Origin: Thermoclostridium caenicola
Lineage (GTDB): Bacteria > Bacillota > Clostridia > DSM-8532
NCBI RefSeq assembly: GCF_900142095.1
Contig: NZ_FQZP01000001.1
Span: forward strand, 1 to 64,000
Length of the DNA stretch: 64,000 nt
Direction: 5' to 3'
Shown here one piece after another: positions 3,654 to 11,874 of the stretch. The position numbers and the translations under genes were made by a program. Below the pieces are notes generated by a model, which worked only from the letters and a program-made list of their open reading frames with translations, was not told where the DNA came from and ran no database searches. The number at the start of each line of letters is the position of its first letter. Within the stretch, counting starts at the first letter, position 1.

Positions 3654-4688
3654 ATGAAAAAAGCAATCGCCCTTGTTTTATCCATATTATCAGTCGTATT
3701 GCTCTATTGTGGATGCGCCCGAATGGCGGCGGAGCATTCTATACCGGATTCCAGCGATAATGTAGCTAACATTGAGCCATCTATACCTGAAGCCTCTGCG
3801 GAAGAACCTGTGATACCAACTCCAACACCTGCAGCATCGACAACAGCACCTGAACCACGAGGGACAGCAACCAATACACCATCAATATCGGAGGAATTTA
3901 ATACTGAAAATGAAGAGCCCAATTCTTTTAATGCTATTATAAGTGCAATAAGTGTAGATGGGATAGTTGATAATGGACTCCTGATAGGAGCGACAAAAGA
4001 TGGCTCCTGGCATACAATGGAAGATTTAGGTTTACCGGAGCATATTCGAAAAGTTCATGGTGGTTTCCTGATAGGAGCTTCAGAGGACGGCCCATGGTAT
4101 ACAATGGAAGAATTGGGGTTATCGAAAAATATACTAGAAAACCCGGACATACCGTATGCAAGAGGAGGAGAAACATATTATTTATATTCAAAAAATGGAT
4201 GCGTCGGTACGGTAGTTGGAGAAAAACCTATACTGCATTTAAATATTGGTGGTTTGGAAAAAGTTTTTAATGTTAAGTTTACGCCAATAGAAGCAAACGA
4301 GAGTTATTTGATTGGTATAACCGGAGATTGGAACCCGCTTCCAAGGAGGCCGAGTCAAACCAAAGACATGGATTTTTTAGTTGATTTGGACGGTGACGGA
4401 AAACAGGAACATTTCCGTTTTACCAGCAAGAAAAGTGAAAAGCCCAATGGAACAGATATCATGATGGCAATATATACAGATGATAAAAGTAAACCGGTAG
4501 CGGAAACAATGGTTGTATATAACCTTGTTAAAGGGGCGAAATATGATATTAGCACAATGGATCTGAATGGGGACGGAATCCTGGAAATTATTACTATGCA
4601 TCTTGGCTCATCTTATGTTGCAGTATCAGTATATGAATTTAAAAACAATAATCTTCAGGAAGTTTTGTCCTCATATACAGGTAATTAA
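3654..4688 (+). CDS. Lipoprotein with duplicated motif and DxDGDG calcium-type loops
   Basis: The likely start is ATG 3654, with AAGGATGG about 11 bases upstream; in-frame ATGs at 3630 and 3639 lack proper spacing. The product (about 344 residues) has a lipoprotein-type signal (VLLYCGC), a Pro/Thr/Ser-rich linker like that of the previous gene, and a repeated segment (GLLIGATKDGSWHTMEDLGL, then GFLIGASEDGPWYTMEELGL). In the last 120 residues are two loops, DLDGDGKQE and DLNGDGILE, of the kind that bind calcium in VCBS/FG-GAP or EF-hand-like proteins. It lies directly after repeat copy 2 and is AT-rich like the rest of the island. It may be a second immunity or accessory lipoprotein; function unknown. 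Confidence 0.7.
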   Translation: MKKAIALVLSILSVVLLYCGCARMAAEHSIPDSSDNVANIEPSIPEASAEEPVIPTPTPAASTTAPEPRGTATNTPSISEEFNTENEEPNSFNAIISAISVDGIVDNGLLIGATKDGSWHTMEDLGLPEHIRKVHGGFLIGASEDGPWYTMEELGLSKNILENPDIPYARGGETYYLYSKNGCVGTVVGEKPILHLNIGGLEKVFNVKFTPIEANESYLIGITGDWNPLPRRPSQTKDMDFLVDLDGDGKQEHFRFTSKKSEKPNGTDIMMAIYTDDKSKPVAETMVVYNLVKGAKYDISTMDLNGDGILEIITMHLGSSYVAVSVYEFKNNNLQEVLSSYTGN

Positions 4689-8608: not shown

Positions 8609-9250
8609 TCAATAGCCCAGTTCCTCGCCGACAAGGATGACCTTGATGCGGTCGGGAACCATCTGCTGCCTGAAAACCACATAATCGCAGCATATCCTGT
8701 CCTCGCTCCTGCAATCCTGGCAATAGCCGGTATGGACACAGGGCGTCCTGCGCGAAAGACGCACGGTATTTGCCGGAGCGGCGATCTGCCTGAGCCGGTT
8801 GACGGCTTCGTCCAGATCGGTCACGATTTTGTTGCAGCCTGCGATGACGATAACATTGTCCGGCCCGTAAATCATGGCGGCCACCCGGTTCCCTCTACCG
8901 TCCACGTTGAAGAGTTCGCCTTTTTCGGTAACGGCGTTGGTGCTGGTCAGGAAGAAGTTCACCGAGAAAGCCTTTCGGTGAATTTCGGTCATCTGCTCCG
9001 GCGTCAGGCCTTCCGCATAGCGATCATAGAATATGTATCGCCCCGAGCGCAGATGATCGATAACCCCTGTTTCAAAAAGGGTCATGGATCCGCCCACCGC
9101 CACCGTGTCGCCTTCCTTCATCAGGGTCTCCAGCAAAGGGACCACATCCTTGCGGGATTCCACATAGAAGGCCTGCATCCTGTTTTTTTGGAGATTCTCC
9201 ATGGTCCTTTCAATTCTTTTCTTCATGACAAACTGTAGATGCTTATCCAT
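8609..9250 (-). CDS. LUD-domain protein (LutC/DUF162-like)
   Basis: The 213-residue product resembles the short clostridial LUD-domain proteins, relatives of LutC of lactate oxidation. Visible family features are the N-terminal helical MKKRIERTMENLQKNRM, VAVGGSMTLFETGVIDHLR, FFLTSTNAVTEKGELFNVDG and VIVIAGCNKIVTDLDEA. The tail is Cys-rich (CVHTGYCQDCRSEDRICC), which could bind metal or a cluster. The start is ATG 9250 with AGAGGTG five bases upstream; the frame extends further without a site. It ends 70 bp before ppx on the same strand and may be read with it. The clostridial members have no firmly known substrate, so only the family is assigned. Confidence 0.88.
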   Translation of the reverse strand: MDKHLQFVMKKRIERTMENLQKNRMQAFYVESRKDVVPLLETLMKEGDTVAVGGSMTLFETGVIDHLRSGRYIFYDRYAEGLTPEQMTEIHRKAFSVNFFLTSTNAVTEKGELFNVDGRGNRVAAMIYGPDNVIVIAGCNKIVTDLDEAVNRLRQIAAPANTVRLSRRTPCVHTGYCQDCRSEDRICCDYVVFRQQMVPDRIKVILVGEELGY

Positions 9251-9357
9251 AACAACACCTCTGTATACCCGTATAGTCATATTATACCATAAACGGAAAT
9301 CGCAAACCCCTGCGGGGCGCAACGCGACCTGTTGTCCGGGACAGGTTTCTGCCAAAT

Positions 9358-9402
9358 GACAAAAATCCGGCCTGGGATCCCGATTGCACCCCAAACCGGA
9401 TC
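9358..9402 (-). terminator. Intrinsic terminator after serA
   Basis: On the minus strand, GATCCGG pairs with CCGGATT across an inner GGG/CCC stem, followed by TTTTTG. It lies 27 bases after the serA stop and separates serA from the LUD gene. Confidence 0.7.
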
Positions 9403-9428: not shown

Positions 9429-11033
9429 TTAAAAGTAAAGCTTGGAGGCTTTCAGTATGCCGTCGATAGAACGGAGCTGCTCAAGTATCTCATCGGAAAC
9501 ATCGCTGTCCACGCTGACAAAGGATACGGCCTTGCCATCCTTGCTGTTGCGGCTCCACTGCATGGCAGCGATATTGATATTGTTCTCGCCCAAAAGGGTG
9601 CCCACCTTGCCGATGATCCCCGGGACATCCCTGTTCTGCAGGGCCAGCACATACTGGGTCGGTTCAAAATCCAGCTGGTACCCGAAGAAATCCACAATCC
9701 TGATGCTGTCCCTGGCAAAAACCGTTCCGGCAATCGAAAGGGTTCTGTCCTTGCGATGGATCTTCACGGTGATCAGGTTGGTGTATTTCTCAAGGGTGCT
9801 GGTCTTGCTTTCAATAAGCTCAATGCCCATCTCATTCAGCTTCATCAGTGCATTGACGTAATTCACTTCGGAGTTCATGATGGTGGACAGAAGACCCTTG
9901 ACCACAGAAATGGTAATGGGTTTGGTATCCAGCCCCACCAGATCGCCGCTGTATATGATCTCGATCTTGTTTATCCTTTCCTTCTCAGCCTGGAAGTAAA
10001 TGCTTCCCAGTTTTTCACCAAGGCTGAGGAAGGGCTTGAGCTTGTTCAGATCACCTGTGATATGGGGCATGTTGACGGCAGATACCAGTTCGCCGTTCAA
10101 TACAGCCTCCACCTGCTTGGCCACGCCCAAAGAGCAGTTCACGTTGGCTTCCTTCGTGGAAGCGCCAAGATGGGGAGTAAAGATAACCTGATCCAAATCA
10201 AGGAGCTTGTTCCAATAATCCTGCTCCTCAGGAGCCTTGTTGAAGTTGGGCTCAACCTCCTGAACGTCGAGGGCTGCTCCTGCCACATGGCCCGACACAA
10301 TCGCGTCATAAAGGGCATCCTCGTCAATCATACCGCCCCGGGCCACATTGACAATTCTGACGCCCTTCTTGCACAGGGCCAGCTCGCGCCTGCCGATGAG
10401 GTTCTTGCTTTCAGGGGTTTTGGGGATATGAATGGTAATCACGTCCGCCTCTTTCAGCAGGTCATCCAGGTTTTCCTTCCGGATAATGCCCAGCTGGGCG
10501 AACCTTTCATCCGATATGTAAGGATCGTAACCCACAATGTTCATGCCCACGCCTTTCAGCTTCTTGGCAACAATGGAACCAATCTTGCCAAGACCGATGA
10601 CGCCCGCGGTCTTCCCTTCCAGTTCCTCACCGACAAACTTGTTTCTCCTGAAGTCCTTGTTCTTGGCTGCGTGATGCGCCTGGGGGATATTTCTGAACAC
10701 AGCGAATATCAAGGCAACGCTCAGCTCGGCAGCCGCGTTGGTATTGCCTTCAGGGGTATTGACCACCGTAATGCCGCGCCTGGTGCATTCCGCCACATCA
10801 ATATTGTCCACGCCATTGCCTGCCCTGCCGGCTACCTTCAGCTTTACTGCCTTTTCCAGCACTTCGTGCGTTACTTTTGTGGCACTTCGTACGATGATTG
10901 CGTCGTAGTCTCCGATAACCTCCAAAAGCTCTTCCTTTGAGATGCCAAAAGGCGTATCCACCTCAAAGCCCTTGCTTCTGAGATACTCGATTCCATTTGG
11001 AGCCATCTTGTCGGTTACGATAATTTTTGCCAT
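9429..11033 (-). CDS. serA: D-3-phosphoglycerate dehydrogenase
   Basis: It oxidises 3-phosphoglycerate to 3-phosphohydroxypyruvate, the first step of serine and then glycine synthesis. The 534-residue product is the long three-domain form: a 2-hydroxyacid dehydrogenase fold with NAD-binding GVIGLGKIGS, catalytic RGGMIDEDAL and TPHLGAST with its His, then an ASB-like intervening domain, then a C-terminal ACT domain (VPGIIGKVGTLLGENNINIA). The start at ATG 11033 (protein MAKIIVTDKMAPNG) has AAAGGTGG upstream; an upstream in-frame extension to 11150 runs into the leader terminator and is not real. A tandem glycine riboswitch and a terminator lie in the leader, so expression probably responds to glycine. 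The ACT domain may add serine feedback on the enzyme. Confidence 0.97.
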   Translation of the reverse strand: MAKIIVTDKMAPNGIEYLRSKGFEVDTPFGISKEELLEVIGDYDAIIVRSATKVTHEVLEKAVKLKVAGRAGNGVDNIDVAECTRRGITVVNTPEGNTNAAAELSVALIFAVFRNIPQAHHAAKNKDFRRNKFVGEELEGKTAGVIGLGKIGSIVAKKLKGVGMNIVGYDPYISDERFAQLGIIRKENLDDLLKEADVITIHIPKTPESKNLIGRRELALCKKGVRIVNVARGGMIDEDALYDAIVSGHVAGAALDVQEVEPNFNKAPEEQDYWNKLLDLDQVIFTPHLGASTKEANVNCSLGVAKQVEAVLNGELVSAVNMPHITGDLNKLKPFLSLGEKLGSIYFQAEKERINKIEIIYSGDLVGLDTKPITISVVKGLLSTIMNSEVNYVNALMKLNEMGIELIESKTSTLEKYTNLITVKIHRKDRTLSIAGTVFARDSIRIVDFFGYQLDFEPTQYVLALQNRDVPGIIGKVGTLLGENNINIAAMQWSRNSKDGKAVSFVSVDSDVSDEILEQLRSIDGILKASKLYF

Positions 11034-11130: not shown

Positions 11131-11163
11131 TCAAAAAAGCAAAAAGTCAAACGCGAGTTTGAC
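11131..11163 (-). terminator. Attenuator-type terminator in the serA leader
   Basis: On the minus strand a perfect 7-bp stem, GTCAAAC-TCGC-GTTTGAC, is followed by TTTTTGCTTTTTTG. It lies between the glycine riboswitch and serA, about 100 bases before the start codon, and is the likely expression platform of the riboswitch. The sequence alone does not tell whether glycine promotes or prevents its formation. Confidence 0.75.
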
Positions 11164-11246
11164 CTGGCAGATGATGCTTTAAATGCAATGGCCCAATGTG
11201 ACCCGGTTTATGCTTCAACAGGGTCATGCCATGTGAAACCATGCCG

Positions 11247-11400
11247 CACTCTGTCCTTTTGCCTGAGAGATACATTCCATGGCGGAACTTGCCCCTTCGG
11301 CGCCTTAACGGTCTCTCCAGAGTTCCGTCCGGTCAAGGTCTTTTTACCTGAGAGTATGACTCCTTCGGTGTGCTGCCTGGCAGCCTCTCTCCCTCGGCCT
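11247..11400 (-). promoter_or_regulatory. Tandem glycine riboswitch upstream of serA
   Basis: The minus strand shows the two aptamers of the gcvT-type glycine riboswitch in order. Aptamer 1 has GGGAGAG, CACCGAAGGAG and CTCTCAGGTAAAAAGACC. Aptamer 2 has CTGGAGAGACC, GCGCCGAAGGGGCAAG and CTCTCAGGCAAAAGGACAGAG-type sequence at 11247-11267. These are the conserved cores that bind glycine, and the linker between them is short as in the known tandem class. The known family most often controls gcv operons or transporters; here it precedes serA on the same strand with a terminator between them. Confidence 0.93.
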
Positions 11401-11461
11401 TCATCCGGTTCCGATATTCTGTTTTATGCTGTACGGAAGGTTTGTTAAATATTTAATAATG

Positions 11462-11489
11462 ATTATACTCCAAGGCATGGAAATGTCAA
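11462..11489 (-). promoter_or_regulatory. Sigma-A promoter for the riboswitch-serA transcript
   Basis: On the minus strand TTGACA (11484-11489) and TATAAT (11462-11467) are both perfect consensus with a 16-bp spacer. Transcription would begin near 11455, about 55 bases before aptamer 1. Confidence 0.8.
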
Positions 11490-11619: not shown

Positions 11620-11874
11620 ATGCATAAGATTGCGGTCCAGGAAGGATTGGACAGAATCGGCGAGTATCTGGCTGCCAGGGGATACCAGGTTGAAAAGATC
11701 GGTTTCGACGCGGCTTCACAGGTAAAGGACAAGGATTACGATGCCATTGTGCTGTCAGGCATCAATGACAATTTCCTGGGCGTCTGCGACACCGTAACCC
11801 GTGCCCCGGTCATCATCGCCACCGGCATGACTGAAGAGATGATTTATCAGCAGTTGGAAAAGCGTCTTCAATAG
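11620..11874 (+). CDS. UPF0180 family protein (YkuS-like)
   Basis: The 84-residue product matches the small UPF0180/YkuS family of Firmicutes in length and pattern (KIAVQEGLDRIGEYLAARGY, DYDAIVLSGINDNFLG, APVIIATGMTEEMI). It looks like a single alpha/beta domain related in shape to response-regulator-like folds. The family function is unknown. The start ATG 11620 follows a strong AGGAGG. A hairpin CCTATC-tcatgt-GATAGG at about 11576-11593 precedes it and may be an operator. It converges with the flavoprotein gene at 11886, 11 bases away. Confidence 0.87.
   Translation: MHKIAVQEGLDRIGEYLAARGYQVEKIGFDAASQVKDKDYDAIVLSGINDNFLGVCDTVTRAPVIIATGMTEEMIYQQLEKRLQ

Follow-up and report, generated by a model that had tools for sequence, protein, structure and literature searches.

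In the available portion of PMC3766115 (2013), serC and serA are placed under a glycine riboswitch in a single Clostridium species, and serine genes are described as rare in the regulons; serC is also reported in the accessible text of PMC2211319. According to the part of PMC9481103 (2022) that is available, five ZTP/glycine tandems are located before the gene that initiates the conversion of 3-phosphoglycerate to serine, with the glycine part predicted to be an OFF switch, and tandems of this type occur in Bacillus and Oceanobacillus. The same portion describes two glycine/T-box-Ser tandems located upstream of serC, serA and serS, in which the glycine part is likely OFF. The glycine cleavage (GCV) switch of C. 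difficile is ON in the accessible text of PMC11477304. Word searches found no serA, serC or serine in the main text of PMC6944388 and no serA or phosphoglycerate in that of PMC12452182, and the available parts of PMC7266159, PMC13273304 and PMC2258182 add no further case of a glycine riboswitch over serA. An earlier interpretation of the locus considered here, made from the letters alone (the sequence-only reading), implied that a riboswitch over serA is unusual. This holds in so far as such control is rarely reported, but the arrangement, serA included, is already in print, as far as the accessible texts of PMC3766115 and PMC9481103 go.

The window is the whole stretch of Thermoclostridium caenicola DNA that was analysed, 64 kb in length. 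In a search of the entire window at the gathering score (32 for RF00504), the glycine riboswitch family RF00504 is found twice, both times on the minus strand, and these are the sole Rfam matches; no other RNA family, including T-box and ZTP, reaches the gathering score. The elements follow one another on that strand in the order promoter, aptamer 1, aptamer 2, terminator, serA (Table 1). The two adjacent aptamers share one terminator as the expression platform (11165-11144), which as DNA reads AGGTCAAAC-TCGC-GTTTGACTT followed by a T tract. The consensus promoter, the two gcvT-type aptamers, the terminator and their order ahead of serA, all claimed by the sequence-only reading, are thus borne out, with the strand, absent from that reading, now added. 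The promoter/terminator scan returned no other minus-strand promoter-like site from the terminator to serA. Shuffled versions of the scanned region yield on average 0.6 terminator-like and 1.0 promoter-like sites, so the window's terminator taken alone is not beyond chance, and its support comes from the conservation of the hairpin in relatives. The locus is a tandem glycine riboswitch with an attenuator ahead of serA, and its ligand is presumably glycine.

Table 1. Elements of the serA leader and the gene that follows it (positions in the window)
Feature	Position	Strand	Remark
sigma-70 type promoter, TTGACA-N16-TATAAT	11462..11489	-	12/12 consensus positions
glycine aptamer 1 (RF00504)	11326..11404	-	49.7 bits, model 1-94
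glycine aptamer 2 (RF00504)	11244..11325	-	53.5 bits, model 6-91
aptamer 2 P1 5' strand, GAACUCUG	11318..11325	-	GACCUCUG or near in most relatives; common to P1 and the predicted antiterminator
aptamer 2 P1 3' strand, CAGAGUGC	11246..11253	-	
candidate antiterminator of the window, 5' half, GGUUUCACAUGGC	11228..11240	-	weak
candidate antiterminator 3' half, GCCAGGUCAAACU	11156..11168	-	weak; overlaps the terminator 5' arm
intrinsic terminator, AGGUCAAAC-UCGC-GUUUGACUU then U tract	11144..11165	-	promoter/terminator scan
serA, D-3-phosphoglycerate dehydrogenase, PGDH_inter and ACT domains	9429..11033	-	534 aa; family search

The SerA protein is full-length and scores 638.4 bits against TIGR01327 (PGDH; cutoff 454). 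The gene that comes after it encodes a LUD-domain protein (8609-9394, minus strand). Since the gap between the two holds only a weak terminator-like site of five pairs (9314-9301), at chance level, their co-transcription is possible. On the other side, a divergent UPF0180 gene (11620-11874, plus strand), presumably YkuS-like, has its start some 130 bp away from the promoter of serA.

The occurrence of this arrangement was followed in a sample of 33 genomes of the order; serA was matched in 32 of them and RF00504 in 31. Aptamer 2 and a terminator hairpin lie ahead of serA in 29 of the 32 serA-matching genomes. The terminator is of the GUCAAA type, with 7-8 anchored pairs, in 27 of the 29 leaders, and the hairpin is imperfect in the other two (L008, L009). 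In some genomes the leader is seen in part: a contig end cuts aptamer 1 in L033, and only one aptamer of G031 reached the search threshold, with both visible in the sequence. The other three of the 32 are G019, G023 and G008. In G019, the start of serA coincides with the end of a contig, and a tandem riboswitch lies at the end of another contig, so that the linkage is not visible. The other two have lost elements. G023 (L029) retains aptamer 1, but its aptamer 2 is broken, with the 3' part gone, and its serA has no visible terminator upstream. In G008 (L037), a leader and aptamer 1 relic runs directly into the ribosome-binding region of serA, and the riboswitch is almost entirely lost. The named relatives are mostly metagenome assemblies of uncultured Clostridiaceae or Clostridia. 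Judged by these sequences, the glycine-riboswitch leader of serA is a conserved feature across almost the whole order; the leaders are related, and their conservation is therefore not independent.

The P1 helix of aptamer 2 has, in most relatives, a 5' strand that is GACCUCUG or near to it, and the 5' arm of the terminator is typically CAGAGGUC. The strand GACCUCUG has two possible partners: CAGAG of the P1 3' strand, which closes the aptamer, or the terminator arm CAGAGGUC. Such complementarity between the P1 5' strand and the terminator 5' arm is present in 24 leaders of the order that belong to genera other than the window's. In these leaders, P1 and the antiterminator are mutually exclusive, and glycine, which is expected to stabilise P1, would therefore free the terminator, as in an OFF switch. 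According to this model, transcription would start just downstream of the promoter. At low glycine, P1 of aptamer 2 would remain open, which would allow one strand of it (in the relatives, the 5' strand GACCUCUG) to pair with the terminator 5' arm, and with this antiterminator formed the polymerase would read through into serA. At high glycine, both aptamers would fold, P1 would close and the terminator arm would be released, leading to the formation of the terminator and the switching off of serA.

The duplex of the P1 5' strand and the arm was compared with shuffled arms. In the 24 leaders, it is matched by no more than 9 of 200 shuffles of the whole arm. The arm was located by its GUCAAA motif, an anchor by which three of the eight positions of the antiterminator are set in advance; with GUCAAAC kept and the 11 preceding bases shuffled, the duplex is matched in at most 29 of 500 cases, and in at most 11 of 500 in 23 of the 24 leaders. 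Twenty of the 24 share a common register, in which each of the five positions outside the anchor forms a pair in 17 to 20 of these leaders. The other four (L018-L020, L023) have a displaced complement, CUCCGGAG or similar with CUCUGGAG, which is still strong; by inspection, L023 has an A-U pair where most leaders have C-G. When the arms were dealt among 40 leaders, the real mean energy was reached in none of 2000 deals, and among 35 leaders (the window's genus left aside) in 4 of 2000. The arms of 11 leaders from outside the 33 order genomes were found by a GAGGUCA-like motif, which biases the pairing counts of these leaders toward the claim; because of this motif, and because the leaders are related, the dealing result is not an independent probability. 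A shared alternative antiterminator downstream of P1 was not found, and only L025 and L032 of the 29 leaders stand out in this respect (3 and 0 of 200 shuffles). The accessible open literature, with subscription papers and supplements outside the search, yielded no description of a P1-5'-strand antiterminator or of this order.

The energetic link between P1 and the terminator was computed with constrained ensembles, in which each of the two was forced or forbidden; this is equilibrium folding, which ignores the kinetics of transcription and the energy of the ligand. The plain fold of the window's leader is no better than that of shuffles (z -0.78; 16 of 100 as good), and by inspection it contains the terminator and misses the aptamer 2 P1. 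For this reason, the direction was taken from the constrained folding and from comparison. Automatic terminator finding was replaced by the GUCAAA anchor after it had picked other hairpins in L008, L020, L026 and L035, and a different register in L009. Because the final terminators of L008 and L009 are parsed as just two pairs, the coupling values of these two leaders are poor.

When aptamer 2 is the only one included, the formation of P1 promotes the terminator in all order leaders but the window (28 of 29). For the 24 leaders outside the genus, the coupling lies between -2.3 and -8.4 kcal/mol, and no more than 5 of 40 shuffles reach so low a value. With both aptamers compared to neither, the terminator is favoured in all 26 order leaders computed; L024, L033 and L035 of the 29 were left out, as their aptamer 1 was not parsed. 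The weakest two-aptamer couplings are those of L007 (-0.8), L023 (-1.9), and the window and L019 (both -2.1). The genome of the window holds two further tandem glycine riboswitches, one before gcvT (L003) and one before an AGCS-type symporter (L001; the name, alanine/glycine symporter, is a reading of its sequence). The coupling of the gcvT leader, in which terminator and P1 3' strand overlap, is +2.4, the sign of an ON switch; that of the symporter leader is -9.2, the sign of an OFF switch. These signs agree with the directions predicted for the two controls from other species, in the available parts of PMC11477304 and PMC5829553.

The sequence of the window behaves differently from its relatives in some of these measures. 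Its coupling for aptamer 2 alone, +1.4 kcal/mol, has the sign opposite to OFF, and P1 formation makes the terminator arm 3.0 kcal/mol less accessible. With both aptamers, the coupling of -2.1 kcal/mol is reached by 19 of 60 shuffles; it is negative in all 15 length variants (-0.5 to -2.9). This negative value is due to aptamer 1: once aptamer 1 is folded, adding aptamer 2 works against the terminator in 12 of the 15 variants, a wrong sign that occurs in the window only among 26 leaders. The positive coupling, the lowered accessibility of the arm and the sign of this last step are what would be expected of an ON switch, in which glycine blocks the terminator and raises serA, for example to tap one-carbon or glycine-fermenting metabolism. 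Glycine riboswitches of breakdown genes are ON, and in the accessible text of PMC11477304 the GCV switch of C. difficile is ON and the grd switch is suggested to be so. Against this stands the geometry of the leaders: in the order leaders with an automatic terminator pick, the terminator lies 36-144 nt past P1 and does not include the P1 3' strand, unlike in the gcvT leader. The relatives are also uniformly negative, in 28 of 28 with aptamer 2 alone, 25 of 25 with both aptamers and 11 of 11 outside the 33 order genomes (7 of the latter within shuffles), and the window keeps the negative sign in every length variant when both aptamers are compared to neither. Taken together, an ON switch is unlikely.

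In the window's genus, the complement on which the antiterminator depends in other relatives is eroded in all five leaders, and two of its eight positions pair in none of them. The duplex of the P1 5' strand and the arm lies within shuffles in four of the five leaders (28, 94, 45 and 36 of 200), the other being L007 (5 of 200); for the window it is matched by 28 of 200 whole-arm shuffles and by 49 of 500 with the anchor kept. When the window is folded without P1 and the terminator, 11240-11228 pairs with 11168-11156 in 11 of 13 positions. The duplex search picked another register and was itself not beyond shuffles (20 of 200), which leaves this replacement pairing weak. The sequence-only reading had anticipated an antiterminator that pairs with one terminator arm: such a pairing is clear in the leaders of the 24 relatives, but the candidate in the window itself is weak.

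The erosion, the window couplings lying within shuffles, and the losses seen elsewhere in the order (the relic in G008, the broken aptamer 2 in G023) could also reflect a decay of the link between aptamer and terminator at the level of the genus, which would leave the leader weakly responsive or a constitutive attenuator. Against this, the promoter, both aptamers and the terminator of the window remain intact, and the other four leaders of the genus couple negatively with aptamer 2 alone (-4.3, -4.4, -2.1 and -6.6, two of them with a poor terminator parse of 2 pairs, L008 and L009). We consider this decay improbable. The genus presumably retains OFF switching through some remodelled pairing.

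In a wider set, 34 (L067-L100) of 58 named serA loci were searched with Rfam, three of which (L067, L092, L093) are the serA loci of the order genomes G032, G011 and G008. RF00504 matches 13 of the 34 and gives no match at the gathering score in 21, and of these 21 loci L091, L095, L096 and L098 start at or inside serA and therefore could not show an aptamer. The glycine aptamer is immediately upstream of serA in L068, L069 and L070. In L072, L073, L074, L077, L082, L089, L094 and L097 it lies about 1.2-1.4 kb upstream, with one ORF between; loci of this kind include Ruminiclostridium papyrosolvens and Anaerobacterium chartisolvens. In L073, the one locus searched, the gene between the aptamer and serA encodes an aminotransferase of class V that stays below every serC cutoff. 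No T-box or ZTP reaches the gathering score in the 34 loci. In L069, a c-di-GMP-I riboswitch is located at 3941-4029, about 0.65 kb downstream of serA. The couplings of the 11 leaders outside the 33 order genomes are all negative (-0.2 to -9.1), and 7 of the 11 are not distinct from shuffles (at least 5 of 40 as low in the middle-only shuffle).

The reading that we favour, with a probability of roughly 0.75, is that the tandem glycine riboswitch attenuates serA by feedback as an OFF switch, with glycine as the probable ligand and the direction in vivo predicted from comparison. For the window, we infer this direction mainly from the relatives, together with the function of the gene and the intact parts of the leader. 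The OFF direction, predicted by the sequence-only reading from biosynthetic logic, is the best supported one: the antiterminator is conserved in relatives and the energy test gives opposite signs for the gcvT and symporter leaders, with the window's own evidence weak and partly contrary. In wider terms, the chances are about even that several Clostridia lineages share one serine-pathway platform, in which the P1 5' strand (CUCUG core) alternates between P1 and an antiterminator on CAGAGGUC, and that the window's genus has recently swapped the pairing. If true, this would be a natural turnover of the expression platform under an unchanged aptamer and gene. The shared use of a P1 strand as antiterminator would also amount to a base-pair rule open to compensatory mutation. 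From the sequences compared, this P1-5'-strand antiterminator and the erosion that it has undergone in one genus appear to be the new part of the analysis, a modest one.

The enzyme encoded by serA is the first of serine/glycine synthesis, and plentiful glycine very likely shuts the pathway. The leader in the window extends a link between glycine and serine synthesis that is already published, and it is well conserved; end-product feedback on the first step of the pathway thereby moves from scattered examples to a feature of nearly the whole order. Compared to the known systems, the ZTP/glycine tandems likewise hold a glycine riboswitch over a serA-type step that is predicted to be OFF, but in the available text on them a ZTP riboswitch precedes the glycine one, and the window has no other RNA family at the gathering score. 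The glycine/T-box-Ser tandems are likewise placed over serine biosynthesis, with two full aptamers and a likely OFF direction in the accessible portion of PMC9481103. In contrast to these and to the Clostridium serC/serA case, as far as they are described in the available texts, the window has no T-box match, serA follows directly after the riboswitch, and the arrangement is kept almost order-wide. The known uptake-controlling glycine riboswitch also uses tandem aptamers and glycine-induced premature termination, but it controls uptake and not synthesis. The gcvT glycine riboswitch belongs to the same family, RF00504, and is published, in the parts available, as ON for the glycine cleavage genes. 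Should the predictions of direction be right, one RNA family would give three outputs in one genome: breakdown through gcvT switched ON, uptake through the symporter switched OFF, and synthesis through serA switched OFF.
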